Below, piece by piece: positions 10,185 through 62,396 of a stretch of DNA of 64,000 nt. The stretch lies in assembly GCA_026874595.1 (NCBI GenBank), contig CM049308.1:46321327-46385326 (forward strand), written 5' to 3'. The DNA comes from Sipunculus nudus. Lineage: Eukaryota > Annelida > Sipuncula > Golfingiida > Sipunculidae. The position numbers and the translations under genes were made by a program. The stretch's first letter is position 1; every line of letters starts with the position of its first letter. Below the pieces are notes generated by a model that was not told the origin of the DNA, made no database searches, and saw only the letters and a list, made by a program, of their open reading frames with translations.

Positions 10185-13100
10185 TCCCCAGACAAAGTCG
10201 GGGGATACTATGTTTCATACTAGTCCTGCCGCCACCACTGCCGCCGCATAAAAATCTTGTTGGCGTGATAACTCAAAAAATATTTCACGGATCTTTCCCA
10301 AACTTGGTATATGTATAGATATGGGTAAGAGGACGACACCAATTAAAATGAGGTCATGACCTTTACTGGGAGAGTGTCCTCGACCTTGAATAGGTCCAAT
10401 TTTTGGGAAAATCACACAAATTCTTAAATATCTCAAGAAATCTTGCATGGATTGATCCCAAAATCAAATTGATTGAAGATCATGACTAGGGATGTCATGT
10501 TACAGAAACTGGTGGTGCCACCTATTATTCTTTACTTGTTTTCATGCCTTTTAATACCCCCAAAATTGTCACTTGACAGTACTGTGAGCATTATAAGTCA
10601 AAAACTAATGGACAGATTTCTTTTATATTATGCATATACATAGATACTAGCAATTACCCGTACTACGCACGGTTTTGGGGAGCATTTAGTTCTGATGTCA
10701 AATAGCCTGTCATAGTTGCATGTCTTTGGTGTACATTGTTACTGTCTCTTTAAATCCAACATTTGGTAAAAGTGTTCTGTCTCTGAGTTAACCTTGTGTC
10801 GGAGTCTGAATGACCTGGAGGAATACGTTCTTGTCCGAATGGTGGAATGTCTTCGGACAAACCTGGAGCATATGTATGTCAAAAATCACGGCTAACCGGT
10901 GTCAGAGGAGACATGTAAATTCACAAAAATCGCGTTACGCTATTAATATATAGATCAATTATATGCATGGTGTCATGCATGAAACTCTTAATTGAAGCCG
11001 AGAGGATGACCAGAGAATTTTCGAAGAAGTTTTGTTAAATAAAATGAAGAAATATGTTAAATAAAATCATTTTTATATGAAAATATATATTATGCTGAAC
11101 ATCGCCATTTAAAGTTGCCCTCTGAGCCCGTGAATCCGCCAGTAAAGAAACCTGTTATCTTGCATGGTAGTACAGTACAGCGCTGAGACGTGATCTCGAT
11201 AATTGCATTCCAGTTATAACGCACAAAAACTGAGCATTAACATGGTCGGGCAGTCCTGCTGCACAAAAGTTTGTGGTAGCATTATATTATGTGGTACATT
11301 TTATGGCTGTATATATTTTTAAATATCACGCACTCCTTTCTGTTTGAAAGCTGAGCCAATGTTTTCCAGTGAGACAGTCACCGCGTTCAGGCAGTGTGTT
11401 AAACCCGGATCCCACTCCGGATCCCGGACCCCAAGAAAAATTTGTAATTCTTAAACTCTCATGGTAATTTGTCCAGATATTTTAGCATTATCTTATCTTA
11501 AGACATATTTTATATCATGTTTGGTTAAAACATAAAAAAAAGTCTGTTTTGCAACAAAATTTGATAAAAAAAACACTTACGGACCCTGGCGCACGGACCT
11601 CACAGATTACACGGACCCCATTTTCTCGTTTTTTTACCATTTCTTTAGTACATACATGTATTTTACATCACGTTTAGCCATAACACCCTTGTAATTTATT
11701 ATTGTGTTTGTATCTGTATTTTTAAATTTCTGTCTCAGTTTTTATTCATAATTTTATATTTGCTATTTATTTCATTTGTGTAGCATTTTAAAAAGTATAA
11801 TAAATAAAAACATTTAAAAAATCATTATTTTGGAACCTGTAGTTGCTTGAATTGCAAGTAATCCACAATTCCTTTCGGTATTTATATTATTGCCAACTTT
11901 AAATTGCATATATTGTTATGAACGGAGCAAGAAACCTGTTGTTATGTGGAAGTGCTCTGTTATATCAGTCTCAGGTCCGCTCAACTGTTAGTGCACTTCA
12001 ATTTAATATCCCCCACTGTGTCAGCACTATTATATTTTCATTTAAAATAACAAATATTATATTAAGTGTGTGACATGAGTGCTAATTTTTTTCCTCTTTT
12101 AGTCATAAATAAAAATATGAGCGATGGTTACTGGGGTCCGTCAAAACTGAACACTCAGCAAAATCAAGTGAATGAGGTCCGTCTTCATCGAAATATTTGT
12201 GTAATTATAAATCTTTCAGTTAATCGGTTATTACAAATGTGCAACATTTAGGGACTTTGCTCTGTTCTTACATCAACAATAGTGGTGTTTTTATCGGTAT
12301 AAATAATGGAGAATGAGGAAATAGGTTTATGGGATCCAGGGACCGTGCATGGGGTTTGGGTTTTACACACTTCCCTGCATTCACTACCGCTCGGAAAATT
12401 TTCATTCTTTGAAAGATCCCCCTTTTGAGCATTTTCCTCACGCGAGATCTCCTTGTGCACAATAGACCTTTTCACTGAGCGGAGGTTGCCTTTTGAGAAG
12501 GGATCACCAATGGGGATTATTTTGGGCCGGTCACCGCAATTTTATGAAAAGCCCAGATAGGGACCCTGGAGAAAAACTCTGTCCGCCTTTAAACACTCTG
12601 TGGCCATTGTGTTACCAGGCCCGAAAACACAAAGAAAAGAGGTGCCCGTTGGGGAGCAAATATTAAAATTATTTATTATGCACGTTATACGCAAATATTG
12701 CAAATAAAAGTGGATGGAATCTCTTCGGACAAATCCTAGGCATATGTATGTCAGAAATCATGGCAAACCGTACAGTAGTATCATAGGAGATACGGAAAAT
12801 TACAAAAATCGCCTTACGCTATTAATATATAGATGGGTTATGGGATGATGTTTATTTAAATTGGGGTCATGACATTTCCAATGAGAGTGGCCTTGACCTT
12901 GAATATTCCCATATTTGGTGAAATTCACACAAAATCTTTAATATCTCAGTAAGGGATACATGGAATGATCTAAAAATCAAATCGACCAAAGATCTTTGAT
13001 AGCTTTGTCTTTTGAAGAAGACAGGTGGCGCCACCTTGTGTAGTTTTCTTGTTAAAATGATGTTAACACAATAACTTTGTAAGAATTTGAGGTACAGTCA

Positions 13101-13715
13101 CCAAACCCACAGGTTTGATGCATCTTATCAATGGCTAGGTCACGATCAAACATGGATGACCTTGATGCATCTTTCAAGGTCACAGCAGCGATTATGCTAA
13201 AATGATATTAGGGCAATAACTCAAAGAGAAATTTGTGGTACAGTCACAAAACCTACAGTTTAGATGCATCTTATCTAGGGCTAGGCCAAGATCAAATATG
13301 GATGACCTTGATGCATTTTTCAAGGTCACAGAGGTGATAATGCTGAAATGATGTTAACTTTAATATCTCACTGAGGGATGCATGGATTGGTCCAAAAATC
13401 AAATTAACATAAGATCTTTGATAGCATTGTTTTCTGCAGAAGACAGGTGGCGCCACCTTATGTTGTTTTCTTGCTAAAATGATGTTTAAATGGAATAACT
13501 TTGTAAGAATTTGAGGTACAGTCACCAAACCCACAAGTTGGAATGCATCTTATCAACGGCTAGGTCAAATTTGAAAAGAAACCATGGTGGCTTGCCAAAT
13601 GTCATTCTCTGCATTTGAATTCAAGATGAGATCCAATCCTTGAGGCTAGGGGAAGGGGGGGAGGGGTTAATTGTCTGGGGATATTATGGCACCTGAGGTG
13701 CCAAGAAATATCTAG
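10185..13715 (+). mobile_element. Helitron H2, non-autonomous, complete ends, interrupted
   Basis: The 5' end is TCCCCAGACAAAG, preceded by A. The 3' end is the perfect hairpin GGCACCTGAGGTGCC (13688-13702), then nine bases, then CTAG (13712-13715) followed by T. TC...hairpin...CTAG with insertion between A and T is the established Helitron signature. A 10-bp inverted pair links the ends (CCCCAGACAA at 10187, TTGTCTGGGG at 13671), and both ends carry GGGGATAYTATG. The core is a tandem of units with cgcaataactc-type phrases and GGTGGCGCCACC palindromes at 13024 and 13446. No Rep/helicase is encoded. It is interrupted by a foreign repeat at about 10650-12836. Confidence 0.82.
10650..12836 (+). 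mobile_element. Unclassified repeat pair inserted in Helitron H2
   Basis: The Helitron phrase ...atacatagat is split from atgggttatgggatgatg by about 2.2 kb. The insert starts near AGCAATTACCCGTACTACGC. It holds two copies of a similar 3' end: one at about 10828-10954 and one at about 12708-12836, both ending TTACGCTATTAATATATAG. Both share CTTCGGACAAA and GCATATGTATGTCA. No RT domain was recognised between them. It could be a non-LTR or Penelope-like remnant; this is unproven. Confidence 0.45.
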
Positions 13716-13771
13716 TTAAATACTGACCTACAAACACAATATTTTTTAGAACAATCTATAAAGCCATTCAT

Positions 13772-15445
13772 TTTTAGCTCAGCTGACTGTAAGTCAACTT
13801 AGGTATAGGAATGGCGCTTTGTCCGTCGGGTGTCCGGCCGTCTGTAAGCAGGGCACAAATTGTAACTGCTGGACCTGTAAATTTTGTTATTTTAACAAAT
13901 ATTTTTATTTTTTTTACTATAAAATGACAACAATCATGTCAGTTTCTCAGCTGTAATTACATATAGTGTCCCAAAACCTGGTGTGTATATTGATCACAAG
14001 TGGATGCCATATAGTTATATCACCCTGTCTGTCTATTTGTCTGTCTGTCCATCTGTCCATCCACACAAATTTGTTTCAAGATGATAACTCCAGGTTGTAT
14101 TGACACAAAGATTTCAAACTTGACTTATATATGGCCTACCACTAAAACAAGAACCTATATGATTTTGGGGTCATGAGGTCAAAGTTCAAGGTCACCAGAC
14201 TAACTTTTTAAAAAAAGATTATGGCTGCATTTTAAGCCAAGCTTTTCATCCCAAACTTTCCATTTTGCACATTTAGCTGACTTGCCAGTATGGGGAGAGC
14301 ATAAATGAATTTGGGGTCACATGGTCAAAGGTCAAGGTCACAGGAGCCATCTGTTCACAAATTAGTTTCCAGATGATAACTAATTTAAGAACCGTGTGGA
14401 TTTTGGGGTCCAATGGTCAAAGGTCATGGTCACAGGACTCATTTCTATAAAAAGAATGCATATGCATTTGAAGCCAAACTTTTCATCCCAAACCTTCCAT
14501 CTTCAAGATATTGCTAACCTGCCAATAGGGGAAGATTCTGTTAAATTTTGGGGTCATGAGGTCAAAGGTCAAGGTCACAGTACCCTCTTATTTAGAAAGA
14601 TTGTGGATGCATTTTAAGCCAAACTTTTCATCCAAAACCTTCCATCTTGCACATATAGCTGAGCTGCCAATAGGGGAAGAAACTGATTGATTTGGGGGTC
14701 ACAAGGTCAAAGGTCATCATCACAGGGGCCCATCTGTCCACATATTTGTTTCTGGATGATTACTCCAGTTTGGATTGACATATTGGCTTCAATTTTGACT
14801 TATCTATGACCCACCAATAATGTAAGAACCCTTTTGATTTTGGGGTCATAAAGGCCAAAGGTCAAGGTCACAGGACCCACTTCTTTAAAAGATTGTTGAT
14901 GTATCTTAAGCCAAAATTTCTGTCCCAAATATTCTATCTTTCCGATGTTGCTCACCTGCACTAGTTGAAGTAACTTATAGATTTTGGGGTCACAAGGTCA
15001 AGGTCTTGGGAGCCATCAATCCACATATTAGTTTCCAGATGATAACACCAGTTTGGTTTTAAATATTGGTTTCAAACTTGACTTATATATGGCCCACCAC
15101 TAAAGTAAGAACTGTTGATTCTGGGGTCATGAGATCAAAGGTCAAGGTCACAGGACCCACTACTTTAGAAAGATTGTGGATTCATTTTTAACCAAACTTT
15201 TCATCTCAATCCTTCCATCATCGACATGTGGTGCATAGGGGAAGTTTCCTTTTGATTTTGGGGTCACAAGGTCAAAGGTTAAGTTCACAGGGCCCATCCA
15301 TTCAAAAATTAGTTTATGGATGATAACTCCAGTTTGGGTAGACAGGTTGGCTTCAAACTGATCACAGGACCAATATTTTGAAAAATCTCATAAACATATA
15401 TCCTTATAGACAAATGCAGCTGAACGTTGAGACCCCACCCCTTTC
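13772..15445 (+). mobile_element. C repeat: Helentron-like element with AGGTCA-rich core, copy 1
   Basis: Opens with an A-type 5' end (TTTTTAGCTCAGCTGACTGT, then a GTCCGTC tract). From about 13915 it changes to a distinct core beginning ACTATAAAATGACAAC. The core repeats about every 290-340 bp, with phrases such as AACTTTTCATCCCAAA and GATGATAACTCCAG, and with AGGTCA half-site clusters. The degenerate 3' end CAGCTGAACGTTGAGACC is near 15417-15434. No coding capacity. Confidence 0.6.
14559..14577 (+). repeat. AGGTCA direct-repeat cluster (best example in C repeat)
   Basis: AGGTCAAAGGTCAAGGTCA contains a perfect DR1 spacing of AGGTCA followed by an overlapping TCAAGGTCA. Related clusters lie near 14176-14195, 14313-14331, 14848-14870, 15123-15151 and 48917-48932. 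These match known nuclear-receptor site types on paper only. Confidence 0.7.
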
Positions 15446-15823: not shown

Positions 15824-15835
15824 ATGTTATTTTAG

Positions 15836-16360: not shown

Positions 16361-16689
16361 TAGCTCGGCTGACTATAAGTCATCTGAGCTATAGTTGTGG
16401 TCCATTGTCCGTTGTCCGTCTGTCTGTCCATCCGTCCGTAGATGTGGCACAATTTGAAACCGTAAGACCTAGGAATCCTAAATTCAGCATAATGTTAGAT
16501 GTCCCCAAGATCTACCAAGCCGAAAACTGGGTCTTTGCGACTTTGTTCCTTTGAGAAATTAAGGAAAAACCTCAATTTTTTATTAGCTCAGCTGACTGAA
16601 AGTCATTTGAGCTATAGGGATCACCTTTTGTCCGTCGTCCGTCCGGCCGTCCGGCCGTCCGTCCGTTAACAGGGCACAAATCGTAACCG

Positions 16690-18308
16690 CTTGAACTGGA
16701 ATCTTCTTACTTGACATCCTAGGAGGTCCATGAATTATCTCCTTGGAAACCAGAAATAAGGTCTCTGTTACCCATATCCTTCGAGCTATGGGGCCCCAAA
16801 GTACCCCCCAGAAAAGTCCAAAATTTCATACAAAAACTTCAATATCTCATTAACTACTTGACTGATGGTCATGATTTTTGGCATACATAATGATCATGAG
16901 AGGTTCCATCAGTTCCTGAAGACTGGTGGCGCCACCTGTATTTTTCGATTTTTTACGAATTTTTTTCTCTATTTTTGAGACCTTTCAAAATGTGAACATC
17001 TGTTAACAAGGTACAAATCGTAATGACTGGACTTAGAATCTTCATTCTCGACACACTGAGAGACCTATGAAAAGTCTCCATGGAAACCAGAAATTAGGTC
17101 TCTGTTACCCATATCCTTCCAGCTATGGGGCCCCAAACTGCCCCCCAGAAAAGTAAAAAATTTCATACAAAAACTTCAATATCTCATTAAATACTTGACT
17201 GATGGTCATGATTTTTGTCATACATATTGATCATGAGATGTTCCATCACTTCCTGCAGACTGGTGGCGCCACCTGTATCGTTAAATTTTTTACGAATTTT
17301 TTTCTCTATTTTTGAGACCTTTCAAAATGTAAACATATGTTAACAAGGCACAAATCGTAAAGACTGGACCTAGAATCTTCATTCTTGACACACTGAGAGA
17401 CCTATGAAAAGTCTCCATGGAAACCAGAAATTAGGTCTCCGTTACCCATATTCTTCGAGCTATGGAGCCTTAAAGTACCCCCAAGAAAAGTAAAAAATTT
17501 CATACAAAAACTTCAGTATCTCATTAACTACTTGAATGATGGTCATGATTTGTGGCATAACTATTGATCATGAGATGTGTCATCTGTTCCTGCAGACTGG
17601 TGGCGCCACCTGTGTCGTTCAATTTTTTACGATTTTTTCCTCTATTTTTGAGACCTTTAAGGATGCTGTCATCTGTTAGCATGGCACAAATAGTAACAAC
17701 TGGACCTAGAATCTTCATTCTTGACACACAGGGAGACCCATGAAAAGTCTCCATGGAAATATGAAATTAGGTCTCTGTTACCCATATCCTTTAAGCTGTG
17801 GCACTCCAAAGTACAGCTCAGATTAATGGAAAATTTGATATAAAAGCTGAAGTATCTGAACAACGAATGCAGGGATCACCATAATTGTTTGCATGGATTT
17901 TGATCATGGAATGTGTTATCAGTTTCTGCAGCCTGGGTGCGCCACCTCTATTTTTTTTTTTTTTATTATTTTTTACGAATTGTTTTCTCTTTTTTTTTGA
18001 GACCTTTAAAAATGTGAACATCTGTTAGCATGGCACAAATCGTAACGACTGGACCTAGAATCTTCATTCTCAATACACTGAGGGACCTATGAAAAGTCTC
18101 CATGGAAACCAGAAATTAGGTCTCTGTTACCCATATCCTTTGAGCTATTGGGCCCCAAAGTACCCCCCCAGAGTAGTCAAAAATTTCATACAAAAACTTC
18201 AATATCTCAATAACTACATCACTGATGGTCATGATTTTTGGCATACATATTGATTATGAGATGTTCCATCAGTTCCTGCAGACTGGTGGCGCCACCTATA
18301 TTGTTTGA
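16690..18308 (+). repeat. A-core tandem array, ~340-bp units (left part)
   Basis: About five units, phased by GGTGGCGCCACC at 16925, 17262, 17599 and 18285, with a degenerate CTGGGTGCGCCACC version near 17931. Spacing is 337-350 bp. Confidence 0.85.
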
Positions 18309-20208
18309 TTTTTAGCTCAGCTGACTATAAGTCATCTGAGCTATAGTCGTGGTCCATTGTCCGTCGTCCGTCCGTCTGTCCGTCCGTCCGTCCGTCCGTA
18401 GATGTGGCACGTTTTGAAACCGTAAGACCTAGGAATCCAAAATCCAGCATAATGTTAGATGTCCCCAAGATCTCCTACCAAGCCGAAAATTGGGGCTTTG
18501 GGACTTCGTTCCTTTGAGAAATTAAGGAAAAACCTCAATTTTTTATTAAAATCCTATTTTCACACTTCAGGACTGCCTAATATCAAAACCACTCATCTGT
18601 TTTTCCTCATATTTACCATAAATATTCCTCTATAAAGTTCCTATGTACATGCCAGAAATTAAGTCTGTAAAGTATAAATTCTTTAAGTTATGGGCCCAAA
18701 CATAATGCATTTTGTAAAAAATCAGGAAAAATAATAACTCAATTTACATGAAAAATTTTGAAACTAGAGTCTATTTTCTCAAGTATATAACTATGTTTAA
18801 TTAAGATTCAATTGTTTACCCAAAATTAGATCTGAATTTTGTAAATTTTTTAAGTTATTAGCATAAAAAAAAATTAGTTCCTTAAATTTTGCCCAACTTT
18901 GACCATGGCACGTTTTTTTCCTGGAAGCACCATTGATTTAATTTTCACAGCATGTAAACATAAATATTTAGTTTGTCTAAATCTGAAATTTGAAAATAAA
19001 AGCTTGAAAATTAAGCTAGTTATTGATTTTTTTTTCTGTAGTCACTTGCTTTGATTACAGATGCAGGGTCCCACTCCTGGTCACTGGAAGTCAGCTATGC
19101 CAGGGTTTCTGATTTGTTACAGTCACTGGGGGAGATCCCTGCTGTGACAGGTGTACAGTTATTCTCATATCACCACCCCAATAACCCCCCCCCCCCCCCC
19201 CCCCCCGCAAACCCAACCCACCAAGTGTTATGCAGTAATTGTTATTGTTTTCACTGTATCTCCTTAATTGTAATGCTGTTTCCACTCCGATATGCAAAAA
19301 CTTTCCTTGAAAAAAAAATTCAAGGTGTAATCCAGAAGATGCAATGTTGTGTAATGTAGCATTTTTAAAGAAATCAATTTTTCTTTTAAATGATTTTAAC
19401 AAATATAATTGAACCCATTAGTATGCTTAAATTATCATAAAATATGAAGCACATTATGGATAAATAAAAACACAATTAAAAAGTGTGAAATCTAAGTCCA
19501 GAATTATTTTTAGATATTAATTGTTTTGCAGATTTAAAAGATATGTTTTTGTGGTAAAAATTAAATAAACATTTGTATGCATGATGTGGTGTTATCTGAC
19601 AAGATTGAGATTTATGATGATGCAATTGAGATATATGAATCAACTTTTATATTCAGATATATATGTTAAATTGGAAATGTATAGAAATATAAACTTAAAT
19701 TAGAAAATAATTGATATGATGAAAAAATGAGGATTTAATACAAACATTTGTTCATTATTTTCCTGCCTCAGCAGAATTTGAGATCAGGCTTTTGCCCTGT
19801 TTTATGTTGTTAATTAGCTATATTTCAACCGTATACATTTTATAAAAAACATACATATATATTTAATAATATATATTATACAAAAAAATAGATTCAATTG
19901 AAAAAATGTGTAAACTACTGAAATGTCAACAGTTAATTGAAAAACCAACTAATGATCATGGTAATAGTACAGATCATTTGTTCACAAACTGCTCACATGC
20001 TTTAGTTTCAACATTAGTAAATGCATGGTCAGGTCACAAAATATTTTTTGCAACAATTTCTTGCTCATCAATACAAACCAATCATATAAACCAACCATGG
20101 CCTTAATTACCTCTTCCCCTTACACTTTATCTCCATTTGATATTGTTTTAGATTTTTACCTTCAAGGTTAACATCAGCTGAGCACAGTGACCCATAGGTC
20201 CCTTGTTT
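18309..20208 (+). mobile_element. B-family element nested in the A array (innermost)
   Basis: A 1.9-kb copy. Its 5' hairpin AGCTCAG-C-TGACT/AGTCA-T-CTGAGCT lies at 18314-18342, with a (GTCC)n tract at 18364-18397. The 3' end is CAGCTGAGCACAGTGACCCA, then TAGGTCCCTTGTTTT (20174-20208). On the left the array stops at attgtttgatt. On the right it resumes at acaatttcttcctctatttt. The uninterrupted unit at 20530-20565 shows the joined sequence. The insertion point is in a run of T. Its interior (18980-20100) matches 62710-63520. Confidence 0.8.
18314..18342 (+). repeat. 5'-terminal hairpin of B element
   Basis: A 29-nt imperfect palindrome: 7-bp stem, one mismatch, 5-bp stem, loop ATA. It is typical of the A and B 5' ends (also at 56656-56684). 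Confidence 0.75.
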
Positions 20209-22760
20209 TACAATTTCTTCCTCTATTTTTGAGACCTTTAAGGATGCTGTCATCTGTTAGCATGGCACAAATCGTAACGACTGGACCTAGAATCTTCATT
20301 CTCAATACACTGAGAGACCTATGAAAAGTCTCCATGGAAACCAGAAATTAGGTCTCTGTTACCCATATCCTGCAAGCTATGGGGCCCCAAAGTACCCCCC
20401 AGAGTAGTCAAAAATTTCATACAAAAACTTCAATATCTCAATAACTACATCACTGATGGTCATGATTTGTGGCATAACTATTGATCAAGAGGTGTTCCAT
20501 CAGTTCCTGCAGACTGGTGGCGCCACCTATATTGTTTGATTTATTTACGATTTCTTCCTCTATTTTTGAGACCTTTAAGGATGCTGTCATCTGTTAGCAT
20601 GGCAAAAATTGTAACGACTGGACCTAGAATCTTCATTCTTGACACACAGGGAGACCCATGAAAATTCTCCATGGAAACCTGAAATTAGGTCTCTGTTACC
20701 CATATTCTTTAGGCTGTATGGCTCCAAAATACCCCCTAGAATAATGGAAAGTTTGATACAAAAAGTGCAGTGTCTCAATAACTACAACACTGATGGTCAT
20801 GATTTTTGGCATACATATTGATCATGAGCTGTTCCATCAGTTTCTGCAGAGAGGGTGCGCCACCTCTATTTTTTTCAAATTTTTACAAATTTTTTTCTCT
20901 TTTTTCGAGACCTTTGAAGATGTGGTTATCTATCAAGAGGGTACAAATTGCAACAACTGGACCTAGAAACTTCATTCTTGTCATGCAAGGAGGCCCATGA
21001 AGAGTGCCTGTGGAAACTTGAAATTAGGTCTCTGTTACCCATATCCTTCAAGCTATAGGACTCTGAAGTATCCCTTAGAATAATGGACAATTTGATACAA
21101 AAGCTGAAGTATCTGAACAACTTATACGGAGATCATCATGATTCTTTGCATGGATATTGACCATTAAGTGTTTTTAGCTCAGCTGACTGTAAGTCATCTG
21201 AAGTATCCCTCAGAATAATGGACAATTTGATACAAAAGCTCAAGTATCTAAACAACTATTGCAGTGATCACCATGATTCTTTGCATGGATATTGATCATG
21301 GAATGTGTCATCAGTTTCTGCAGTATGGTGGCGCCACCTGTATTTTTTTTTATTTTTACGAATTTTTTTCTCTTTTTTTGAGACCTCATAAGATGCGGTC
21401 ATCTGTTAACATGGCACAAATCGTGACAACTGGACCTAGAATCTTCTCTCTTGACATGCTGAGAGGCCAATGAAAAGTCTCCTTAAAAACTTGAAATTAG
21501 GTCTCTGTTACCCATAACCTCTGAGCTATGGGGCTCCAAAGTACCACCCAGAATAATGGAAAATTTGATACAAAAGCTCAAGTATCTGGACAATTATTAT
21601 ATTGATCACCATGATTCTTTGCATGGATATTGATCATGAAATGTTTCATCAGTTTCTGCATTCTGGTGGCGCCACCTGTATTTTTTTCAATTTTTAGCTC
21701 AGCTGACTGAAAGTCATCTGAGCTTTAGGGATCACCTTTTGTCCGTCGTCTGTCCGGCCATCCAGGCGTCTGTCTGTTAACAGGGCACAAATCGTAACCG
21801 CTAGACCGGGAATCTTCTTACTTGAAATCCTGGGAGGTCTATGGAAATTCTCCTTGTAAACCTGAAATTAGGTCACTGTGACCTATATTCTTTGAGCTAT
21901 GGGGTTCTGAAGTACCCCCCAGAATAATGCAAAATTTAATACAAAAGCTCAAGTATCTGAACAACTAATGCATTAATCACCATGATTCTTTGCATGGAAA
22001 TTGATCATGGAGTGTTTCATCAATTTCTGGAGATTGGTGGTGCCACCTATATTTTTTTTAATTTTTTACAATTTTTTTTCTCTACTTTTGTGATCTTTAA
22101 ACATTTGGTCATCTGTCGACAGGGCACAAATCATAATGACTGGACCTAGAATCTTCTGTCCTCACCTCCAGGGAAGCCCATAAAAGGTCTACATGGAAAC
22201 CCGAAATAAGGTCCCTGTTACCCATATTATGTGAGCTATGGGGCTCTGAAGTACCCCCCAGAATAAAGATTTGGTCATATATTAACAGGGCACAAATCAT
22301 AATGACTGGACCTAGAATGTTCTGTCCTCACCTCCAGGGAAGCCCATAAAAGGTCTACATGGAAACCCGAAATAAGGTCCCTGTTACCCATATCCTTCAT
22401 GCTCTGGGGCTCCGAAGTACTCCCCAGAATAAAGATTTGGTCATCTGTTAACAGAGCACAAATTATAATGACTTGACCTAGAATCTCCTTTCTTGATATG
22501 CTGGGAGGCCCCTGAAAAGTCTCCTTGTGCACCTGAAATTACATCTCTGTTACCCATATCCTTCATCCTATGCGGCTTTGAAATACCCCCCAGAATAAAC
22601 ATTTGGATTTGTTAACAGGGCACAAATCATAATAACTGGACCTAGAATTTTATTTTTTTGACATGCTGGGAGACCCCTGAAAAGTCATCTTGTAAACCTT
22701 GAAAATAGGTGTCTGTTACCCATATCCTTCATGCTACAGAGCTCCATAGTACCCCAATGA
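20209..22760 (+). repeat. A-core tandem array (right part) with 165-bp short units
   Basis: Units of about 340 bp continue, with palindromes at 20516, 21327 and 21665. From about 22100 the period drops to about 165 bp (TTTGGTCAT...GGGCACAAATCAT at 22105, 22268, 22434 and 22599). These short units lack the palindrome half of the unit. Confidence 0.8.
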
Positions 22761-24239
22761 ATATTGGATGATTTTATACAAAAAGGTCAAGTTTGGAAAA
22801 AGTATTTCATTCAAATTTGACATTCAGATGATAAAATTACTTTTGTCAATGTCTTCCTGGTCAGCTGAGCGTCATGACCCCTGGGTCACTTGTTAAAAAC
22901 CTATTTTCACACTTCAGGGCTGCCTAATATCAAAACCACTCATCTGTTTTTCCTCATATTTACCATAAATATTCCTCTATATAGTTCCTACATGCTAAAA
23001 ATTATGTCTGTATTGTATATTTTAAAAAAGTTATGGGCCCAAACATAATGCATTTTGTAAAAAATCAGGAAAGATATTTGATCACTTAACACAAAACGTG
23101 TTAAAGCTATGGACTTTTTCTTCCAGTAAAATAATTTTAATTAATCAAAATTAAATTGTATACCCAAAATTAGATCAAAATCTTTTAAATTTTTTAAAAT
23201 ATTAACAAAAATAAAAAATTGGTACCTTAAATTTTGCCCAACTTTGACCATGGCAGGTTTTTTTCCTGTAAGCACTGTGGATTTTATTTTCACAGCATGT
23301 TTTTGTTAGTATTTTGTCTGTTAACACCAAAAATTTGAAACCAGTTGATCAAAAACTGTTGATTTTATTCAAGTTTTCAAGCAACATGTAACATTTTTTA
23401 CATCAAGCTAGTGTTTTGCAGTTTGCTAGAGCTCAGCTCCCCAGCTTCAGCTCTCAGTTCCAAAAATTTGGCATACAATTAGATGTCTCAAAAATCCCCT
23501 ACCATGCCAAGAATTTGGTCACTAGGACTTAATACCTTCGAGATATTAATGGAAAACTTCATTTTTCCATCAAAAACTCATTGTTACACTTCAAGACTGC
23601 CTAATATCAAACCACTGATCTGACTTTAATCATATATAATATACATGTTTTTCTGTACATTCTCTATGCACATGCAAGAAATGATGTCAGTATTGCGTAA
23701 TTGTTTTAAGTTTGTAAAAAAAAACCAAGAAATATATTTACTCCCTTAACAAGGGGATTGCTGAAGCTAAAGATTTTTTGTCAGGGATGTAACATTATTT
23801 ATTCAAGATTCAATTGAATACCCAAAATTAGTTCTGAATTTTTCAAATTTTATAAGTTATTAGAATAAATATAAAATTAGTACCTTAAATTTTGCCAAAC
23901 TTTGACCATGGCACATTTGTTTCCTGTGAGCACTGTTGATATGATTTTCATATCATGCACACATAAGGATTTAAACTTTTTAGTTTATAAAGCTGAAAAA
24001 TTGGCCAAAAATTGTAGCTTTAATTAATGTTTTTATGAGACCATGTCAGACCTTGGCTCTCCCCAGCCCCTCTTGAGTCACCTGTATGTTGACCTTGTTG
24101 ACCTTTCAGCAAATTATGCACGCTTCAGGCGAGGCATACACTGGGACAGCCTATGGCCAGCCACAGTTGTTCCATTTGTCCAACCCAACTCATCTAGTAG
24201 TTTAACCAACAACATAACAATAAAAAATAAAATTTTTAT

Positions 24240-26344: not shown

Positions 26345-27219
26345 CTAGAATACGGGTAGTTGACAAGCGACTGCGTTTATCTGCCAAAAATCAGAGTGAG
26401 ACGGGTGAAGTGAGGCATGGATTGAGAGGCAAGGGGGAAATAGGTGTGTTGCATATTAGCATGGATGTCTGCAGCTGAAATGTGAATGTAGGTGGCCCCA
26501 CCTACCACAAATTCCAGAAAGCTGCCCAAGTTGTATTCATATGCTAAATTATAGGCAGATAAGTCAAACCACTGCTTGTATAAGAGTGATTTTATCCCAC
26601 AGCAGACAAACAGAAGGACACTGTGCAAAAATGGTGGCAGGTGGCGCCATCAATTTGTTTATGATAAAGAGCTATATGAGACCTATACACATGCAAAATT
26701 TTGCCCCAATCAGTCAAATGGTTCCCGAGATATGAGCTTGGATGTCTGCAGCATAAATGTGAATGTAGGTGGCGCCACCTGTCATAAAATCATGAAAGCT
26801 GTCCAGGATGTATACACATGTAAATTTCAGGTGGATAAGTCCAACCAATGCAGGGATTTGAGTGATTTTATCCCAAGGCCGATGAACAAAATAAAGTTTG
26901 CAGGTGGCGCCAGCATTTTTAGTGTATGTTATAAAGCTATCCAAGGGCTACGTTTGTGCAAAATTTTTAGCCTGATTGGTCTAACGGTTCTCGAGATATG
27001 TGGGTTTATGTGTGTAAACAGACACATAAATGGACGCTGGGCAGAGAGGAAAGGTCAAAGGTCAACCAAAAATGAGGTGCAGCAGTTCACATGTGACCCG
27101 ATCATAATTCCGAATTTAAAAAAATTCCGCCCAGTGGTTATGGAGGTGTTCTCTGGAAACCTAAGAGGCGGCATCGGTTGACTGATAACATTGTATCCGC
27201 AAAACTCTGTTTTGGTGGA
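26345..27219 (-). mobile_element. Helitron H1, complete small copy, reverse orientation
   Basis: Read on the minus strand, it begins TCCACCAAAACAGAGTTTTG (preceded by A) and ends GACTACCCGTATTCTAG (followed by T), 875 bp. Both ends obey the Helitron A|TC...CTAG|T rule. It carries GGTGGCGCCACC at 26768-26779 and a DR1 AGGTCAAAGGTCA at 27052-27064. The 201-codon plus-strand frame at 26576-27181 is antisense to the element and runs through its tandem units, so it is not taken as a gene. Confidence 0.8.
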
Positions 27220-27666: not shown

Positions 27667-28864
27667 TCCGCCAAAATGAAGTTTTGCGGATACTATGTTT
27701 TTGACCAGGTTCCGCCGCGGCGTCTGTTTCCACACATAAACCCATATATCTCGGGAACCATTTGACTGATCAGGAAAAAAATTTTACACAAATGTAGCCC
27801 TGAGATAGCTTTATAACATACACAAAAAAGGTGGCACCATCTGCAACCATGTTTGCACAGTGTCAATCTGTTCTTCTGCCTTATGTTAAAATCACTCATA
27901 TTTCTGCAGTGGTTTGACCAATTCACCTGAAATTCAGCATGCATATACATCCTAGATAGCTTTCTTGATTTTATGACAGGTGGCGCCACCTACATTCACA
28001 TTCAAACTGCAGACATCAAAGCTCATATCTTGGGAACCTTTTCACCGATTAGGCCAAAATTTTCCCAAGTGTAGATCTCACATAGCTCTTTATCATACGC
28101 AAAGCTGGTGGCACCACCTTCAACAACTTTGCACAGAGTCCGTCTATTTGTCTGCCATGGGATAATATCACTCATATCTCGGCAGTGGTTTGACATATCT
28201 GCCTAAATTTTTCAGTTTTATACATCCTGGACAGCTTTCTTGAATTTATGACAGGTGGCGCCACCTACATTCTAGTTTACGCAGCAGACATATATGGTGG
28301 CACCATCTGTATTTGTTCTGGTGTTTTTCTGAAATTAGGTCTCTGTTACCCATATCCTTTAAGCTGTATGGCTCCAAAATACCCCGCCCCCCCCCCCCCA
28401 GAATAATGAAAATTTGATACAAAATCTGCAGTATCTCAATAACTACAACACTGATGTTCTTTATTTTTGGCATACATATTGATCATGAGGTGTTCCATCA
28501 GTTTCTGCAGACTGGGTGCGCCACCTCTATTTTTTTTCAAATTTTTACGAATTTTTTTCTCTATTTTTGAGACCTTTAAAGATGTTGTTATCTGTCAACA
28601 GGGTACAAATCGTAACAACTAGACCTAGATTCTTCATTCTTGTAATGCATGGAGGCCCATGAAAAATGACTGTGGAAACCTGAAATAAGGTCTCTGTTTC
28701 CCATATCCTTCAAGCTATAGGACTCTGAAGTATCCCTCAGAATAATGGAAAATTGATACAAAAGATGAAGTATCTGAACAACTAATCCAGAGATCACCAT
28801 GATTCTTTGCATGGATATTGACCATTTGTTTTAATTAGTTTCTGCAGACTGGTGGAGCCACCTG
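27667..28864 (+). mobile_element. H1 Helitron 5' part joined to A-core fragment
   Basis: The 5' end TCCGCCAAAATGAAGTTTTG is followed by GCGGATACTATG at 27667. H1 units follow with palindromes at 27979 and 28254. Near 28300 the sequence switches to A-core units (GAAATTAGGTCTCTGTTACC), to about 28864. No 3' terminus of either family is present, so this is a chimera or truncation. Confidence 0.6.
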
Positions 28865-44300: not shown

Positions 44301-46405
44301 CTAGAAGCTTTATTTTTCATTTTTGACATTGGGGGAGGCCCATGAAAAGTCTCCTTGGAAACCTGGAATTAGGTCTCTGTTACCCAGATTCTTCAAGCTA
44401 TGGGGCTCTGAAGTACCCCCGCTGAATAATGAAAATTTGATACAAAAACTGAAATATCTGAACAACTAATGCATTGATAACCATGGTTCTTTGCATGGAT
44501 ATTGATCATGGAGTGTTTCATAGGTTTCTGCAGACTGGTGGCGCCACCTGTATTTTTCGATTCTTTACAAATTTTTTTCACTATTTTTGAGACCTTTCAA
44601 GATATGAACATCTGTTAACAGGGCACAAATCATAACAACTGGACCTAGAATCTTCATTCTTGACACACTGGGAGACCCATGAAAAGTCTCCATGGAAACC
44701 TGAAATTAGGTCTCTGTTACCCATATCCTTCATGCTGTAGGGCCCCAAAGTACCCCCCAGAATAGTCAAAAATTTCATACAAAGAGATCATGAGATGTTT
44801 CATCAGTTTCTGCAGACTCCCTAGAAACCTGGAATTAGGTCTCTGTTACCTATATTCTTCAAGCTATGGGGCTTGTTACACATTTTTACAATTTTTTTTC
44901 TCTATTTTTAAGTTATGTGTCAACAGGGTACAAATTGTAACAACTGGACCTAGAATCTTCATTCTTGTCATGCAAAGAGGCCAGTGAGAGTGTCTTTGGA
45001 AATCTGAAATTAGGTCTCTGTTACCCATATCCTTCACGCTCTAGGACTACAAAGTATCCCTCAGAATAATGGAAAATTTGATTCAAAAGCTGAAGTATCT
45101 GAACAATTAATGCAGAAATCACTATGATTCTTTGCATGGATGTTGACCATTAAGTGTTTTTATTAGTTTCTGCAGACTGGTGGAACCACCTGTATTTTTT
45201 TTAAAGTTTGCGCATTTTTTCCCATATTTTGAGATATATAAATTCAGATACAATCTTGGCTTATTCTTTAATCTGTTTGATGCTTCAGTTGAATGGGTAT
45301 CTACTACCATTCAGATGTTAAAATTTCCTTTTGCAAATCTCTTCCCAGTCAGCTGAGCGTCATGACCCATCCATTTGTTAATAACAAATTAAGGAAAAAT
45401 TAATAGAAAAGGATTTTGTTAGTTGATGAGTAACAGAAAATTAACTTGCAGTTACTGATAATGTAAGAATCTTGTATGGATGGATAGAATGTCAGTGTCA
45501 ATGTTATTCCAAAAAACACCATGCAGTCACCTATGGTATTTTTCAGTTCAATTTTAATGATAACAAAATAAACCATATTATTCATTACTAATCATTAGGG
45601 ATCATATGAAGGAAATTAATGATAGACAAAGATGCAGTTGATAATATTAATCTAGATTGATTCCTACTGTGTCTAGAGTGTAGATTGATGTGAAAGTAGT
45701 CCAAAGTGAATATATTACATTTAATTTTTTTAATATAAATAAAAGCCATAAAACCAGGTACTTATGATCATTATTTAAATTTGTGAATTTTGTATATTCT
45801 GGATTCTCAACATCATTGTTTGGCTAAAACTACTAGACATGGTGCGAATGCTTTGCAAATGTATTTGAATACGAATATGAATATGTAATGCATATGTACT
45901 GCAAAATTTTATTGCATAAGAATTGGAATTCAGGTAAAAATGAAAGTATTTGAATACCAGTGCAGATACTTTCAAAATGTTTTCATGAATGCATTCATAA
46001 ATATATTCTATAATATTATTTTAATAATCATTTCAGTTATATTTTATTTTAAAAAATCATATGATTTGCTTATTATTTTGTTTTAAATAAAAATTATATT
46101 GGCACAATATTTGTTATTAAATTTTAAGAAATAGTTAAACTCTTTTATTATATAAGCTGCTTATAAGTTATATGGCCAAGTCAAAATCTGTGTGACAGTA
46201 GCACTCCAATTGTTAATAAAATAAATGAAATCAGTCCTCTTCCCTGTCTCCAAAGATACTATCAAAATCATACATAAGCTAAACACCAACAACTCATAAT
46301 AAAGCTTATATTTATAACCACACAAAACCAGCATGTGCCTCATTCCCAAATCATATTTTTTATCATATGTAACAGCTGAGCACCGTGACCCATGGGTCCC
46401 TTGTT
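41352..46405 (+). mobile_element. B-family element, 5'-truncated, split by an A element
   Basis: Starts inside the core (AAAATATTAATAAAAATAAA) directly after the previous terminus. It is split at ttattggttttt | aataacaaatt by the A element 42404-45379, then finishes with its 3' module and terminus CAGCTGAGCACCGTGACCCA, TGGGTCCCTTGTTTT (46371-46405). Intact B copies read straight across the split (for example at 32215-32235). Confidence 0.75.
42404..45379 (+). mobile_element. A-family element inserted in the B element
   Basis: The 5' end is TAGCTCAGCTGACTTTCAGTC with a GTCTGTCTGTCTGTCC tract. There are about eight core units, with palindromes at 42752, 43089, 43428 and 44537 and decayed versions at 44192 and 45178. 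An additional internal 5' end lies at 43757. The 3' end is GTCAGCTGAGCGTCATGACC near 45348-45367, with the final palindrome half lost. Confidence 0.75.
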
Positions 46406-47808: not shown

Positions 47809-48375
47809 TTTTAGCTCAGCTGACTTAAGTCATCTGAGCTATAGTGATCACTCTTTGTCAATATCCATCTGTCTGTCTGTCCGTCAGTCTGTCCCTTCAC
47901 CAGGCACAAATCATAACCGCTGGACCTAGAATCTTGTAACTTAACATTCTGAGAGGTTATTATGAAAAGTTAAAAAAATCTGTGTCTTTGGAAATCTGAA
48001 ATTAGGTCTCTGTTACCCATATCCTTCAAGCTATAGGACTCCGAAGTATCCCTCAGAATAATGGAAAATTTGATACAAAAGCTGAAGTATCTGAACAACT
48101 AATGCAGAGATCACCATGATTCGTTGCATGGATATTGACCAATAAGTGTTTTTATTAGTTTCTGCAGACTGGTGGAGCCACCTGTATTTGTTTTTAAAGT
48201 TTACGCACTTTTTCTCTATTTTTGTGAAATATAAATACAGACACAATCTTGACCTGTTGGTTAATCTGTTTGATGCTTCAGTTGAATGGGTATATACTAC
48301 CATTCAGATGATAAAATTTCCTTTTCAAATCTCTTCCCAGTCAGCTGAGTGTCATGACCCATGGGTCACTTGTTT
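47809..48375 (+). mobile_element. A-family element, minimal complete copy (~567 bp)
   Basis: A 5' hairpin (AGCTCAGCTGACTTAAGTCA...), a GTCTGTCTGTCCGTC tract, essentially one core unit with GGTGGAGCCACC near 48171, and the 3' end GTCAGCTGAGTGTCATGACC, CATGGGTCACTTGTTT (palindrome TGACCCATGGGTCA at 48355-48368). This is the shortest copy with both ends here. Confidence 0.75.
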
Positions 48376-49083
48376 AATTATAAAATGACAACAACTATGT
48401 CAGTTTCTCAGCTTTGATTACATCTTGTGTCCCAAAACCTGGTGTGTTTATTAGTGGTTGCCCTATAGTAATCACCCTGTCTGTTTGTCTGTCTGTCCAT
48501 ACGTCCATCCACAAATATTTTTCCTGATTATAACTCCTGGTTGGACTGACACATATATTTCAAACTTGACTTACATATGGCCCACCACTAAAGCAAGAAC
48601 CTAAATGATATTAGGGTTGTAAGGTTTAAGGTCAAGGTCACAGGACTCACTTATTTAAAAAGATTATGGCTGCATTTTAAGCCTAGCTTTTCATCCCAAA
48701 CTTTCCATCTTGTGCATTAAGTTGACTTGCCAGTATGGGGAGAGCATGAATAAATTTGGGGTCACAAGGTCAAAGGTTGAGGTCACAGGTGCCATGTGTT
48801 CACAAATTAGTTTCAAGATGATAACAACAGTTTAGTTTGACAAATTGGTTTAAGATTTAACTTATGTATGGCTTACCACTAAAGTAAGAACCATGTCGAT
48901 TTTGGGGTCCAGTGGTCAAAGGTCAAGGTCACAGGACCCATTTATTTAATAAGAATGCAAATGCATTTGAAGCCAAACTTTTCATGGCAGTAGATGTCAA
49001 AGGACTCATTCTGAAAAATTTCCTAAAAAATATCCTTACAGACAAATTCAGCTGAGCATCAAGACCTATGGGTCCCTAGTTTA
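48376..49083 (+). mobile_element. C repeat, copy 2
   Basis: Follows the A element directly: AATTATAAAATGACAACAAC, then AGGTCAAGGTCACAGG-type clusters. The terminus is CAGCTGAGCATCAAGACCTA, TGGGTCCCTAGTTT (49050-49083). It lacks its own 5' hairpin. Confidence 0.6.
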
Positions 49084-54830: not shown

Positions 54831-54846
54831 CATGGCAACTGACCTG

Positions 54847-55012: not shown

Positions 55013-56036
55013 TCGGGTTTATCATCAGGTCACATGTGAACTGCTGCGCCCTCATTTTTGGTTGACCTCTGACCTTTCCTCGCTGCCATAACATAAACCC
55101 GCATATCTTGGTAACTGTTTGACCGATCAGGCTAAAAATTTTGCACAAATGTGGCCCTTTGATAGCTTTATAACATACACTAAAAATGGTGGCACCACCT
55201 GCAAAGTCCATCTGTTCATATGCCTAGTGATAATATCACTCATATCTCAGCAGTGGTTTGACTTATCCACCAGAAATTTTGCAGGTTTATACATCCTGGA
55301 CAGCTTTCTCTATTTATGCAGTTGGCGCCACCTACATTCACGTTTACTCTGCAGATATCCCAGCTCATATCTCGGGAACCATTTGACCGATTTTGCAAAA
55401 ATTTTGCATGTGTATAGATCTCACATAATTCTTCATCATAGGCAAAAATAGTGGTGCCACCTGCAACCACTTATGCACAGCGTCCATTTGTTCATCTGCC
55501 TTGGGATAAAATCACTCATATCTCGGCAGTGGTTTGACTTATCCACCTGAAATTTTGCAGGTTTATACATCCTGGACAGGTTTCTCGATTTTATGACAGG
55601 TGGCCACACCTACATTCAGGTTTACTCTGCAGACATCCACGTTCATATCTTGGGAACCCTTTGACCGATTGGGCCAAAATTTGCATGTGTATAGATCTTA
55701 CATAGATCTTCATCATAGGGAAAACTGGTGGTGCCACCTGCAACCATTTATGCACAGCGTCCATCTGTTCATCTGCCTTGGGATAAAATAACTCATATCT
55801 CAGAAGTGGTTTGACTTGTCCACCTGAAATTTTGCAGGTTTATACATCCTAAACAATTTTCTCGATTTTATGACAGGTGGCACCAGCTACATTTAATTTT
55901 AAGCTGCAGACATTCATGCTAATATGCAACACACCTCACTCTATTCCCCTTGCCACTTAATCCATGCCTCACTTCACCCTACCCACTCTGATTTCTGTTG
56001 ATACACATAGTCACTTGTTGACTACCCATATTCTAG
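55013..56036 (+). mobile_element. Helitron H1, 5'-truncated copy
   Basis: Starts with the conserved GGTCACATGTGAACTGCTGC and DR1 TGACCTCTGACCT (55063-55075), followed by units of about 260-300 bp. It ends at the Helitron 3' terminus ACTACCCATATTCTAG (CTAG at 56033-56036) followed by T. Confidence 0.75.
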
Positions 56037-60560: not shown

Positions 60561-60668
60561 AACTATTATGGCCATATACTTAACTTTTGAAAACTTAATT
60601 ACCTTCACACATTATTTGTTTATGAAATGTAACTTTTATATAACACTTACCGTAGGCCCATTTTTGTA

Positions 60669-62396
60669 TCCGCCAAAACAGAGTTTTGCGGATACTATGT
60701 TTTCAGCTGCACGCCGCTGCCGCCGCCTCGTAGGTGTCCGGAGAACTCCTCTGTAACGGCTGGGCGGAATTTTACGAAACCCGGGATTATGTTCGGGTCA
60801 CATGTGAACTGCTGCGCCCCGATTTTGTTTTGACCTCTGACCTTTCCTCTGCGCTCTGCGTCCGTTTGTGCGTCTGTTTCCACACATAAACCCACATATC
60901 TCGGGAACCGTTTGACAGATCAGGAAAATTTTTTTGCACAAATGTAGCCCTTGGAGAGCTTTATAACATACACAAAAAATGGTGGCGCCACCTGCAACCA
61001 TGTTTGCAAGTGTCCATCTGTTCGTCTGCCTTGGGTTAAAATCACTCATATCTCTGCAGTGACTTTACTAATTCACCTGAAATTTGGCATGCGTAAACAT
61101 CTTGGATAGCTTCTCTGATTTTATGACAGGTGGCGCCACCTACATTCACATTTACGCTGCAGACATCCAAGCTCATATCTCGGGAACCGTTTGACCAATC
61201 AGGAAAATTTTTTTGCACAAATGTAGCCCTTGGAGAGCTTTATAACATACACAAAAAATGGTGGCGCCACCTGCAACCATGTTTGCACAGTGTCCATCTG
61301 TTCGTCTGCCTTGGGTTTAAATCACTCATATCTCTGCAGTGACTAGACTAATTCACCTGAAATTCGGCATGCGTATACATCCTGGATAGCTTTTCTGATT
61401 TTATGACAGGTGGCGCCACCTACATTCACATTTCAGCTGCAGACATCCAAGCTCATATCTCGGGAACCATTTGACCGATCAGGAAAATTTTTTGCACAAA
61501 TGTAGCCCTTGGAGAGCTTTATAACATACGCAAAAAATGGTGGTGCCACCTGCAACCATGTTTGCACAGTGTCCATCTGTTCGTCTGCCTTGGGTTAAAA
61601 TCACTCATATCTCTGCAGTGACTTGACTAATTCACCTGAAATTCGGCATGCATATACATCCTGGATAGCTTTTTTGATTTTATGACAGGTGGCGCAACCT
61701 ACATTCACGTTTACGCTGCAGACATCCAAGCTCATATCTCGGGAACCGTTTGGCCGATTGGGCCAAAATTTTGCATGTGTATAGATCTCACATAGCTCTT
61801 TATCATACGCAAAACTAGTGGTGCCACCTGCAGCCATTTTTGCACAGCTCGCGTCTGTTTGTCTGCCATGGGATAAAATCACTCATATCTCGGCAGTGGT
61901 TTGCATATCTGCCTAAAATTTTGCAGGTTTATACATCCCCGATAGCTCTCTTGATTTTATGACAGATGGCGCCACCTGCATTCTAGTTTATGCAGCAGAC
62001 ATCCAAGCTCATATCTTGGGAACTGTTTGACCGATTGGGCCAAAGTTTTGCATGTGTATAGTTCTCACATAGCTCTTTATCATACGCAAAACTGGTGGCG
62101 TCACCTGCAACCATTTTTGCTCAGCGTCCATCTGTTTGTCTTCCACGGGCTCAAATCACTCATATACATGTAATGGTTTGACTTATCTGCCTTAAATTTT
62201 GCATATGTATACAACTTGGACGGCTTTCTGGATTTTGTGGTGGGGGGGCAACCTAAATACACAATTTGGCTGCAGACATCCATGCTAATATGCAACACTC
62301 TATTTCCTCTTGCCACTCAATCCATGCCTCACTTCACCCGTTCCACTCTGATTTAGGCGGATACACGTAGACGCTTGTCGACTACCCGTATTCTAG
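60669..62396 (+). mobile_element. Helitron H1, complete long copy
   Basis: The 5' end TCCGCCAAAACAGAGTTTTG (hairpin with GCGGATAC, preceded by A) and the 3' end CGACTACCCGTATTCTAG (followed by T) bound 1,728 bp. DR1 TGACCTCTGACCT is at 60831-60843. There are about five tandem units with GGTGGCGCCACC at 60981, 61129, 61260 and 61409 and several one-base variants. No Rep/helicase. It is the longest full copy in the window, and its units alternate two half-units (GGCGCCACCTGCAACCAT and GGCGCCACCTACATTCAC). Confidence 0.85.

Follow-up and report, generated by a model that had tools for sequence, protein, structure and literature searches.

A 12-bp palindrome recurs throughout the 64,000-nucleotide stretch of Sipunculus nudus DNA that was analysed (the window; contig CM049308.1, positions 46,321,327 to 46,385,326). 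The tandem cores of Helentron-type non-autonomous elements (HINEs) are built from an ancient monomer, and the palindrome was shown to be its best-conserved box; the rest of the monomer has diverged between families. Judged from its sequence, the palindrome is a candidate binding site for a probably dimeric and probably host protein, a reading to which we give about an even chance.

Occurrence of the Palindrome in the Window and Genome

All 22 positions at which a sequence-only reading had placed the 12-mer were exact matches, and the one-base variants that it had mentioned were found as 23 further one-mismatch copies, which gives 45 copies in the window at up to one mismatch. In 100 dinucleotide shuffles, a mean of 0.00 exact copies was expected, and 0.01 when one mismatch was allowed. 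Genome-wide (1.4265 Gb), the exact 12-mer was found at 111,729 places, compared to 14 for the same word reversed without complementing; CpG-decayed forms of it number 45,683. The genome has more than 100,000 copies because a large group of rolling-circle elements carries tandem repeats in which the 12-mer is better kept than any other part. COX1-like genes on several contigs are bacterial, and a scan with one of them gave distant relatives, of which the 80 matches listed were at most 58% identical. The proposed frequency of one site per A unit and two per H1 unit agreed with the TRF periods (337 for A, 277 and 279 for H1), and the H1 12-mers at 60981-61409 are spaced by 148, 131 and 149 bp. 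That the tandem cores carry the 12-mer was true for A, H1 and H2 (Table 1), but not for two other arrays, the 166-bp array at 22098-22736, which is a shortened A unit, and the 281-283-bp array at 14049-15359. As a text string in the literature, the 12-mer had only one, unrelated occurrence, and a literature search on the title level returned nothing on the palindrome.

Table 1. Cores, sites and elements in the window. In core and site rows, the strand is that of the common site-to-box orientation.
Feature	Position	Strand	Details
A-family tandem core, 337-bp units	16665..18313	-	12-mers 16925, 17262, 17599, 18285
Broken-dyad site in A core 16665..18313	17935-17946		
A-family tandem core	20207..21696	-	12-mers 20516, 21327, 21665; separated by an inserted element from core 16665..18313
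A-derived core	21773..22790	-	site GGTGGTGCCACC at 22036; 166-bp units 22098-22736 without 12-mer
A-family tandem core	42489..43756	-	12-mers 42752, 43089, 43428
A-family tandem core	43888..45234	-	12-mer 44537; variant GGTGGCGCAACC at 44193
Two-mismatch site of F-like unit in A core 43888..45234	45179-45190		
H1 core, opposite orientation	26453..27000	+	12-mer 26768 and variants
H1 core	27746..28291	-	12-mers 27979, 28254; variant 28107
H1 core, 277-bp two-site units	34362..35587	-	12-mers 34594, 35000 and variants
H1 core	55102..55925	-	sites all one-mismatch or weaker
H1 core, 279-bp two-site units	60895..62291	-	12-mers 60981, 61129, 61260, 61409 and variants
H2 core	12936..13568	-	12-mers 13024, 13446 either side of a ~146-bp tandem repeat
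X-family site	10511..10522	-	one mismatch, CpG decayed
F-like (diverged A-like) unit	47896..48235	-	site GGTGGAGCCACC at 48171
HINE-type element inserted in A-unit T-run	18309..20207	+	left end from 18309; GTCC repeats 18366-18397; right end 20173-20207
HINE-type element	21693..22895	+	left end (subTIR/IR, GTCC-type microsatellite), A-derived core, right end GTCAGCTGAGC and palindrome at 22860
Composite	42404..45380	+	left ends 42404, 43757; two A cores; right end from 45348, palindrome degraded
Tandem core without 12-mer	14049..15359	+	left end at 13773; repeated AGGTCA half-sites, AGGTCAAAGGTCAAGGTCA type

The Tandem Cores Sit in HINEs

The tandem cores of the window sit in HINEs, which have GCTCAGCTGAC ends as well as GTCC microsatellites and, on the 3′ side, a palindrome. 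Left ends of the TTAGCTCAGCTGACT..AGTCATCTGAGCTATAG type, with the 5′ subTIR and the complementary IR, occur at 11 window positions, one of which (21173) is truncated, and exact 17-mer left ends number 33,424 genome-wide. GTCC-type microsatellite runs follow the left end at 16414, 18366, 42460, 43828 and 56708, the A, H1 and H2 arrays form the central tandem repeats, and the 3′ subTIR followed by the palindrome (GTCAGCTGAGC plus GTCATGACCCATGGGTCAC type) is found at 22860 and 35866, with variant or degraded 3′ ends at 20173, 45348 and 49047. There was one complete case of T-rich insertion, the element at 18309-20207 inside the T-run of an A unit; the neighbouring A unit at 20516 is uninterrupted in sequence.

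Left-end junctions in A units were found in 7 of 17 cases, and all seven lay at -20 to +47 bp from the palindrome. Left ends with an exact 12-mer 4-34 bp upstream numbered 1,263, compared to about 81 expected from uniform densities, a comparison in which some 37 junctions are identical (by eye, among the matches listed) and T-runs account for most positions. We regard insertion targeting by the palindrome as a lead.

The Families Share a Half-Unit with Two Boxes

The surroundings of the palindrome had been described as otherwise different between families. This held in a simple BLAST comparison, where 12-25 bp were common to A, H1 and H2, but a register-aware comparison aligned the families. 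With the 12-mer excluded, the downstream 80 bp reached z ≥ 4.0 in 18 of 55 family pairs, eight of them within the H1 group, and the upstream side did so in 6 of 55; since the units were oriented by likeness to a by-eye consensus, the downstream side had an advantage here. Within these 18 pairs, the aligned flanks differ by 24-42%, while the 12 site columns are invariant. Ten families could be distinguished, three of them as a single copy, and all have the identical 12-mer, whereas most flanking columns are not identical; this perfect conservation is partly ascertained, because most families were found via the exact 12-mer. H1a and H1b have another identical block, ACATGCAAAATTT, which is as long as the 12-mer.

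A second box, [TC]GAGATA, lies 71-77 bp from the palindrome in A, H1, H2 and X units of the window. Five spellings were tried, and TGAGATA and CGAGATA were retained for having the site at this distance in most window cases, that is, 30 of 47 boxes (A 6, H1a 7, H1b 13, H2 2, X 1, unassigned 1); 17 boxes had no site, where chance alone would give 12.6 ± 4.0 boxes. In 19 random stretches, the retained spellings had a site in 2 of 24 cases. Other spellings were rejected (with site: TGAAATA 0/30, TGAGGTA 0/7, TGAGATT 2/7). These alignments indicate that a common ancestral half-unit exists, and it is the shared register, together with the second box at a near-fixed distance, that identifies the palindrome as the best-kept box of an ancient monomer. 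A functional site and a relic of a common unit had been posed as alternatives; the data contain elements of both, a shared half-unit and a palindrome that is its most invariant stretch between families.

Single Copies Decay after Insertion

The expectation that the site is better kept than its flanks was borne out between families, but within families the site was nearly no better kept. Among window copies, site divergence was 0.078 in H1a, 0.057 in A and 0.193 in H1b, compared to 0.083-0.260 in neighbouring 12-bp windows, and the H1b sites diverge as much as their own flanks. In the X family, the site changed at 0.0096 versus 0.0136 in the flank at non-CpG positions (p = 0.42) and at 0.0093 versus 0.0248 at G/C positions only (p = 0.015), and the CpG of the site mutated at 0.0585 versus 0.0136 in the non-CpG flank. 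When units were found with the site masked, 20 of 60 had a perfect site; the mean site divergence was 0.07-0.08 in 51 of the 60 units, at flank divergences of 0.05-0.20, and 0.35 in five units at flank divergences of 0.20-0.25. McDonald-Kreitman-type tables were not significant (H1a/H1b, p = 0.38; A/H1b, p = 0.39), and a third, H1a/H1c, was uninformative, H1c having collapsed onto H1a. In summary, the decay of single copies once inserted is near-neutral and most rapid at the central CpG, and selection of the site at every copy is not supported. As the within-family decay is almost like that of the flanks, any selection therefore acts on propagating elements and not on each copy; that the site is kept in propagating lineages is the better reading, but it is not proven.

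A Proposed Protein Recognition Site and Its Alternatives

The sequence-only reading favoured a functional site, such as one for a dimeric host factor or a replication/transposition signal, for which the shared invariance and the dyad speak, but against which the near-neutral within-family decay counts as far as conservation per copy is concerned. In the explanation that we prefer, the box in the core would be recognised by a DNA-binding protein, for which the perfect dyad symmetry of the site makes a dimer probable. Elements whose cores bind the protein would spread better, possibly by way of germline expression, replication timing or chromatin opening, so that the box would be kept, and dead copies would lose it afterwards. 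Against this explanation, the 166-bp unit was tandemly amplified without the 12-mer, and broken dyads of the GGTGGC-CACCC type were seen by eye in nine A sites among the matches listed. In our view, a host protein is more likely than the element's own Rep/helicase. One other tandem family has a canonical CTCF motif (its 18-mer occurs 3,379 times in the genome) and another has nuclear-receptor half-sites (a 19-mer, 22,468 times), and these families suggest that the cores may be built round factor sites. The three core classes, with no detected homology, have one motif each: the GGTGGCGCCACC dyad, the canonical CTCF site or triple nuclear-receptor half-sites. More tentatively, and on balance doubtfully, Helentron-type and neighbouring tandem cores may be arrays of host-factor sites, in elements that evolved by swapping the recruited host factor and seeded more than 100,000 dyad copies.

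It is rather unlikely, if still worth serious consideration, that the palindrome is functionless now and represents whichever part of a common ancestral monomer changes most slowly, kept by recent common descent and homogenisation. The half-unit and second box common to the families agree with such a relic, as do the non-significant McDonald-Kreitman-type tables and a site only mildly better kept than its flanks within families, as at the non-CpG positions of the X family. However, the 12 columns are invariant between families despite the flank difference, and the G/C-only change of the X-family site is below that of the flank. Since the CpG in the site mutates fast, a neutral relic should have lost the site first. 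We think it quite improbable that the palindrome is an iteron-like site at which a Helentron protein, such as the rolling-circle Rep/helicase, binds and so brings the machinery to non-autonomous copies. Rolling-circle replicons have dyad sites to which Rep binds, the 12-mer lies in the central core of HINEs, and the genome has at least 143 Helitron_like_N matches, several of them in open frames of more than 2,000 aa; however, seven loci with Helitron ORFs, which together span 67.4 kb, had neither the 12-mer at up to two mismatches nor any of the searched HINE-end patterns. This absence is weak evidence, because a true autonomous partner, with HINE-matching ends, was not found among the seven loci.

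A CTCF site is very unlikely, even though the CTCF motif has AGGTGGCGC as its 3′ half, which the palindrome presents on both strands. The genome encodes a CTCF orthologue (C11:67037578, E 4.1e-109, 56% identity; by eye, fingers 3-6 look well kept), CTCF in an annelid is treated in PMC7854359, and another tandem family has near-perfect CTCF motifs. With a CTCF matrix, the H2 consensus scored 17.2 bits and single window copies up to 16.1, but the consensus sites of six distinct families (H1a, H1b, A, B, X and E) scored only 6.3-9.2 of 31.9 bits and did not match the full motif, and in 64 kb of shuffled sequence 4.7 hits exceed 8 bits. The CCA half is absent, CTCF does not account for the full dyad, and the CTCF-bearing family, considered as a homologue of the 12-mer families, showed no detectable homology to them (z -2.5 to 2.3). 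For a hairpin or cruciform acting in rolling-circle replication or tandem amplification, we see hardly any likelihood. A perfect palindrome that recurs in each unit (one in A, two in H1) would fit, but units without it were amplified, and dyad changes were 59 broken versus 0 compensated (58 of 60 units) and, in the X family, 20 broken versus 0 compensated. The lack of compensatory changes disfavours a hairpin.

Comparison with Known Systems

Cg_HINE of Crassostrea gigas (PMC7492417, in its available text) has the same left flank with subTIR, IR and GTCC-type microsatellite, the same right flank with subTIR and palindrome, and central tandem monomers, mostly of 140-180 bp in the oyster, unlike the units of 337 bp, of 277-279 bp with two sites, or of about 146-166 bp found here. 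Two relatively conserved segments, reported without a protein function, are common to its otherwise dissimilar monomer clusters, whereas a palindromic 12-mer is not named for the monomers in that text, through which the comparison was made, the oyster sequences being in figures. DINE-1/HINE elements of Drosophila and a mite share subTIRs, a 3′ palindrome, a microsatellite or central repeats, and a T-rich insertion preference, but no shared 12-mer is mentioned in the accessible sections of PMC4067079. By resemblance alone, the elements would point to a mollusc or bivalve. Likewise, Helitron-associated oyster satellites form short arrays as Helitron central repeats and are scattered genome-wide, but the portions of PMC11136912 and PMC8268682 that were compared do not describe a conserved protein site.

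The palindrome, as a putative protein recognition site, bears on the reason for the satellite-like tandem cores of Helentrons and for the persistence of short boxes in cores that have diverged. With one well-defined dyad in more than 100,000 copies, this question can be put to the test. Were the dyad bound by a host factor, the elements would give the genome a large natural reservoir of regulatory or architectural sites. A precedent for elements of this kind that contain sites for host factors comes from D. miranda, where DINE-1-like elements supply binding sites for the male-specific lethal (MSL) complex, as cited in the part of PMC4067079 noted above; if true, the sites described here would be comparable in kind.

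Recurrence and genomic setting of the palindrome

The 12-bp palindrome GGTGGCGCCACC (the 12-mer) is present 22 times in the window (C3:46321327-46385326) and in none of 100 dinucleotide shuffles; an exact word search confirmed every coordinate assigned to it by the sequence-only reading, and copies with one mismatch lie at 23 more places. Counted genome-wide with a control word, as that reading had proposed, it occurs 111,729 times in 1.43 Gb versus 14 times for its reversal. The recurrence is real and large. The single-CpG-transition variant GGTGGTGCCACC has 45,683 genomic copies, and hence many further sites are in decay. Nineteen 4-kb stretches chosen without regard to the 12-mer contain no exact and three one-mismatch copies, together with A-, E- and H1d/e-like units. 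COX1 genes (frames of 577-578 aa) were seen on contigs C60, C61, C62, C66, C72, C74, C75 and C89; the only one read, on C60, is of bacterial type, so the assembly includes bacterial sequence, perhaps from a symbiont.

In the window, the 12-mers are located in the tandem cores of three unit families (A, H1 and H2), and further families (H1c-e, B, X, E and F) came to light when 20 loci surrounding listed 12-mers on contig C1 were inspected. The elements enclosing the cores have the anatomy of non-autonomous Helentrons (HINEs), with HINE-like left ends (TTTTTAGCTCAGCTGACT..AGTCATCTGAGCTATAG; exact left-end 17-mer, 33,424 in the genome), GTCC microsatellites, and right ends consisting of GTCAGCTGAGC and then a GTCATGACCCATGGGTCAC-type palindrome, degraded in some. 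For one complete element, the next intact A unit, at 20516, provides the uninterrupted counterpart of the insertion site. Seven of the 17 left ends found abut A units, all with the junction at -20 to +47 bp relative to the 12-mer and two sharing one junction type, and genome-wide an exact 12-mer lies 4-34 bp upstream of 1,263 left ends; a T-run preference may explain these junction positions.

Features of the 12-mer families and their surroundings (window positions unless a fetched stretch, L, or contig, C, is named)
Feature	Position	Remarks
A unit		337 bp; one site
H1 unit		277-279 bp; two sites (halves H1a, H1b)
Complete element	18309-20207	inserted in T-run of A unit
Left ends abutting A units	18312, 21174, 21694, 43758, 47811; L010 935; L062 653	
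166-bp unit	22098-22736	tandem, without 12-mer
Broken dyad GGTGGCGCACCC	17935-17946, 20853-20864, 28514-28525	A subfamily
AGGTCA core	14049-15359	based on half-sites
AGGTCA core	48508-48985	repeated half-sites, like 14049-15359
X-family 12-mers	C1 139957, 468939, 480504	within ~600 bp of AGGTCA-type arrays
~330-bp tandem family	L034 938, 1266, 2052, 2382, 2714	C9:33000001-33004000
69- or 63-bp repeats	L064 7973-9138; L065 8614-9481; L066 2463-2850; L067 7435-7960	Helitron-type loci
Box with site		A 6 (all 75 bp); H1a 7 (71-73); H1b 13 (74-77); H2 2 (75); X 1 (75); family-unassigned 1
Downstream z		X-H2 10.2; H1a-H1c 8.2; A-F 6.5; H1e-H2 6.4; A-H1b 4.5

A common monomer with two boxes

The families had been described as otherwise different, which holds in plain BLAST, where little beyond the 12-mer is shared, but not in aligned flanks. 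We aligned 11 family representatives over the 80 bp to either side of the 12-mer, itself left out, the sites being oriented by likeness to a by-eye downstream consensus, which somewhat favours the downstream side; z was at least 4.0 in 18 of 55 downstream pairs (eight inside the H1 group) and in 6 of 55 upstream pairs. In two controls of 110 ordered pairs each, downstream against upstream flanks gave a mean of -0.17 (s.d. 1.17, largest 5.9) and against reverse-complemented upstream flanks at most 2.7. Family B had no significant partner (best 2.6). By these alignments, the families are related rather than independent.

In a consensus alignment of ten distinct families (H1c collapsed onto H1a; H1d, H1e and F single copies), none of the 12 site columns varies, and near the end there is a second box, GAGA(TA). 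Five spellings were tried, and TGAGATA and CGAGATA were kept as having sites in most window cases. They make 47 boxes in the window, 30 with a site (at most three mismatches) 71-77 bp away, at 75 bp in 15 of the 30, versus seven sites on the opposite side. Shuffles predict 12.6 ± 4.0 boxes, so that the 17 site-less ones are about chance; in random stretches, 2 of 24 boxes have a site beside them. Flank similarity and the fixed-distance box together point to one ancestral monomer, in which two boxes have kept a near-fixed spacing while the remainder diverged.

Functional site or relic

The sequence-only reading had opposed a functional site to a relic of an ancestral unit; the common monomer stands by flank z and second box, and a functional site is still favoured, without strong per-copy constraint. 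The palindrome is kept better than its flanks between families, most of which were found through the 12-mer, and barely so within them. When the window was searched for copies under a masked site, site divergence against neighbouring 12-bp windows was 0.057 versus 0.083-0.177 (A), 0.078 versus 0.083-0.172 (H1a) and 0.193 versus 0.130-0.260 (H1b, the alternate half of H1 and hence less touched by 12-mer-based discovery). Across 60 masked-search units (window and random stretches), the site is perfect in 20; where the flanks diverge by 0.05-0.20 (51 units) its mean divergence is 0.07-0.08, and where they diverge by 0.20-0.25 (five units, two of them poorly aligned at the site) it is 0.35. For family X, copies were located by an anchor lying outside the site (1,054 in all, 100 examined, 94 indel-free analysed); non-CpG changes were 0.0096 in the site versus 0.0136 in the flank (p=0.42), or 0.0093 versus 0.0248 at G/C positions only (p=0.015), and the site CpG changed at 0.0585. 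McDonald-Kreitman-type tables for three family pairs, one uninformative, gave no significant result. Given these tables and the weak within-family difference, strong constraint on individual copies is absent; if selection acts, it acts on lineages that keep transposing. The 12-mer is best seen as the best-kept box of an ancient HINE monomer, and we give about even credence to its being a protein-binding site under element-level selection; the chief rival of that reading, a functionless relic, seems rather unlikely.

A hairpin or cruciform requires pairing, not one fixed sequence. Dyad changes were compensated in none and broken in 20 cases in family X, and in none versus 59 in the masked-search units (in 58 of 60). 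As a 166-bp site-less unit was also amplified in tandem, structure is disfavoured and a putative protein site favoured. These 166-bp units are A derivatives that lost the 12-mer-bearing half. At least nine A units (by eye, among the matches listed) carry broken dyads of the GGTGGC-CACCC type, the GGTGGCGCACCC subfamily, which has spread; an intact dyad is therefore not needed in every unit.

Candidate binders

An element-encoded binder is a possibility that gains no support from the Helitron ORFs: across seven loci totalling 67.4 kb, with frames 895-2,426 codons long, neither the 12-mer (at most two mismatches) nor any of the searched HINE-end patterns was found. Long-frame Helitron-type loci contain 69- or 63-bp repeats, lengths divisible by three, and these overlap the frames for the most part. 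A host factor is preferred, mainly because other cores bear textbook host-factor motifs: AGGTCA half-sites of nuclear-receptor type (AGGTCAAAGGTCAAGGTCA, 22,468 in the genome, control 0), and, in a different ~330-bp tandem family of a random stretch, near-perfect CTCF motifs (27.8 and 27.3 of 31.9 bits on a CTCF matrix). The 18-mer GGCYGCTAGGGGGCGCTG has 3,379 genomic copies (control 0), spaced ~327-334 bp for many among the matches listed, and its flanks have no detectable homology to the 12-mer families. CTCF, whose orthologue the genome encodes, seems very unlikely for the 12-mer itself: on that matrix, the family consensuses at the site reach 6.3-9.2 of 31.9 bits apart from H2 (17.2), and the best single window copies up to 16.1. 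On contig C16 (~12.7-61.8 Mb), many C2H2 zinc-finger frames among the matches listed resemble an expanded gene cluster; these proteins could be candidate binders of the repeat motifs.

Comparison with known elements

The literature text searched on such elements yielded no description of the palindrome. The kind of element (HINE) is already known; what is new is the dyad common to the families, the partner box at a fixed distance from it, and cores that bear motifs. D. miranda DINE-1-like elements are cited as a source of MSL-complex sites (PMC4067079). The anatomy of the window elements agrees with that described for Cg_HINE (PMC7492417), and the T-rich insertion preference of DINE-1-like elements (PMC4067079) is matched by the complete window element.
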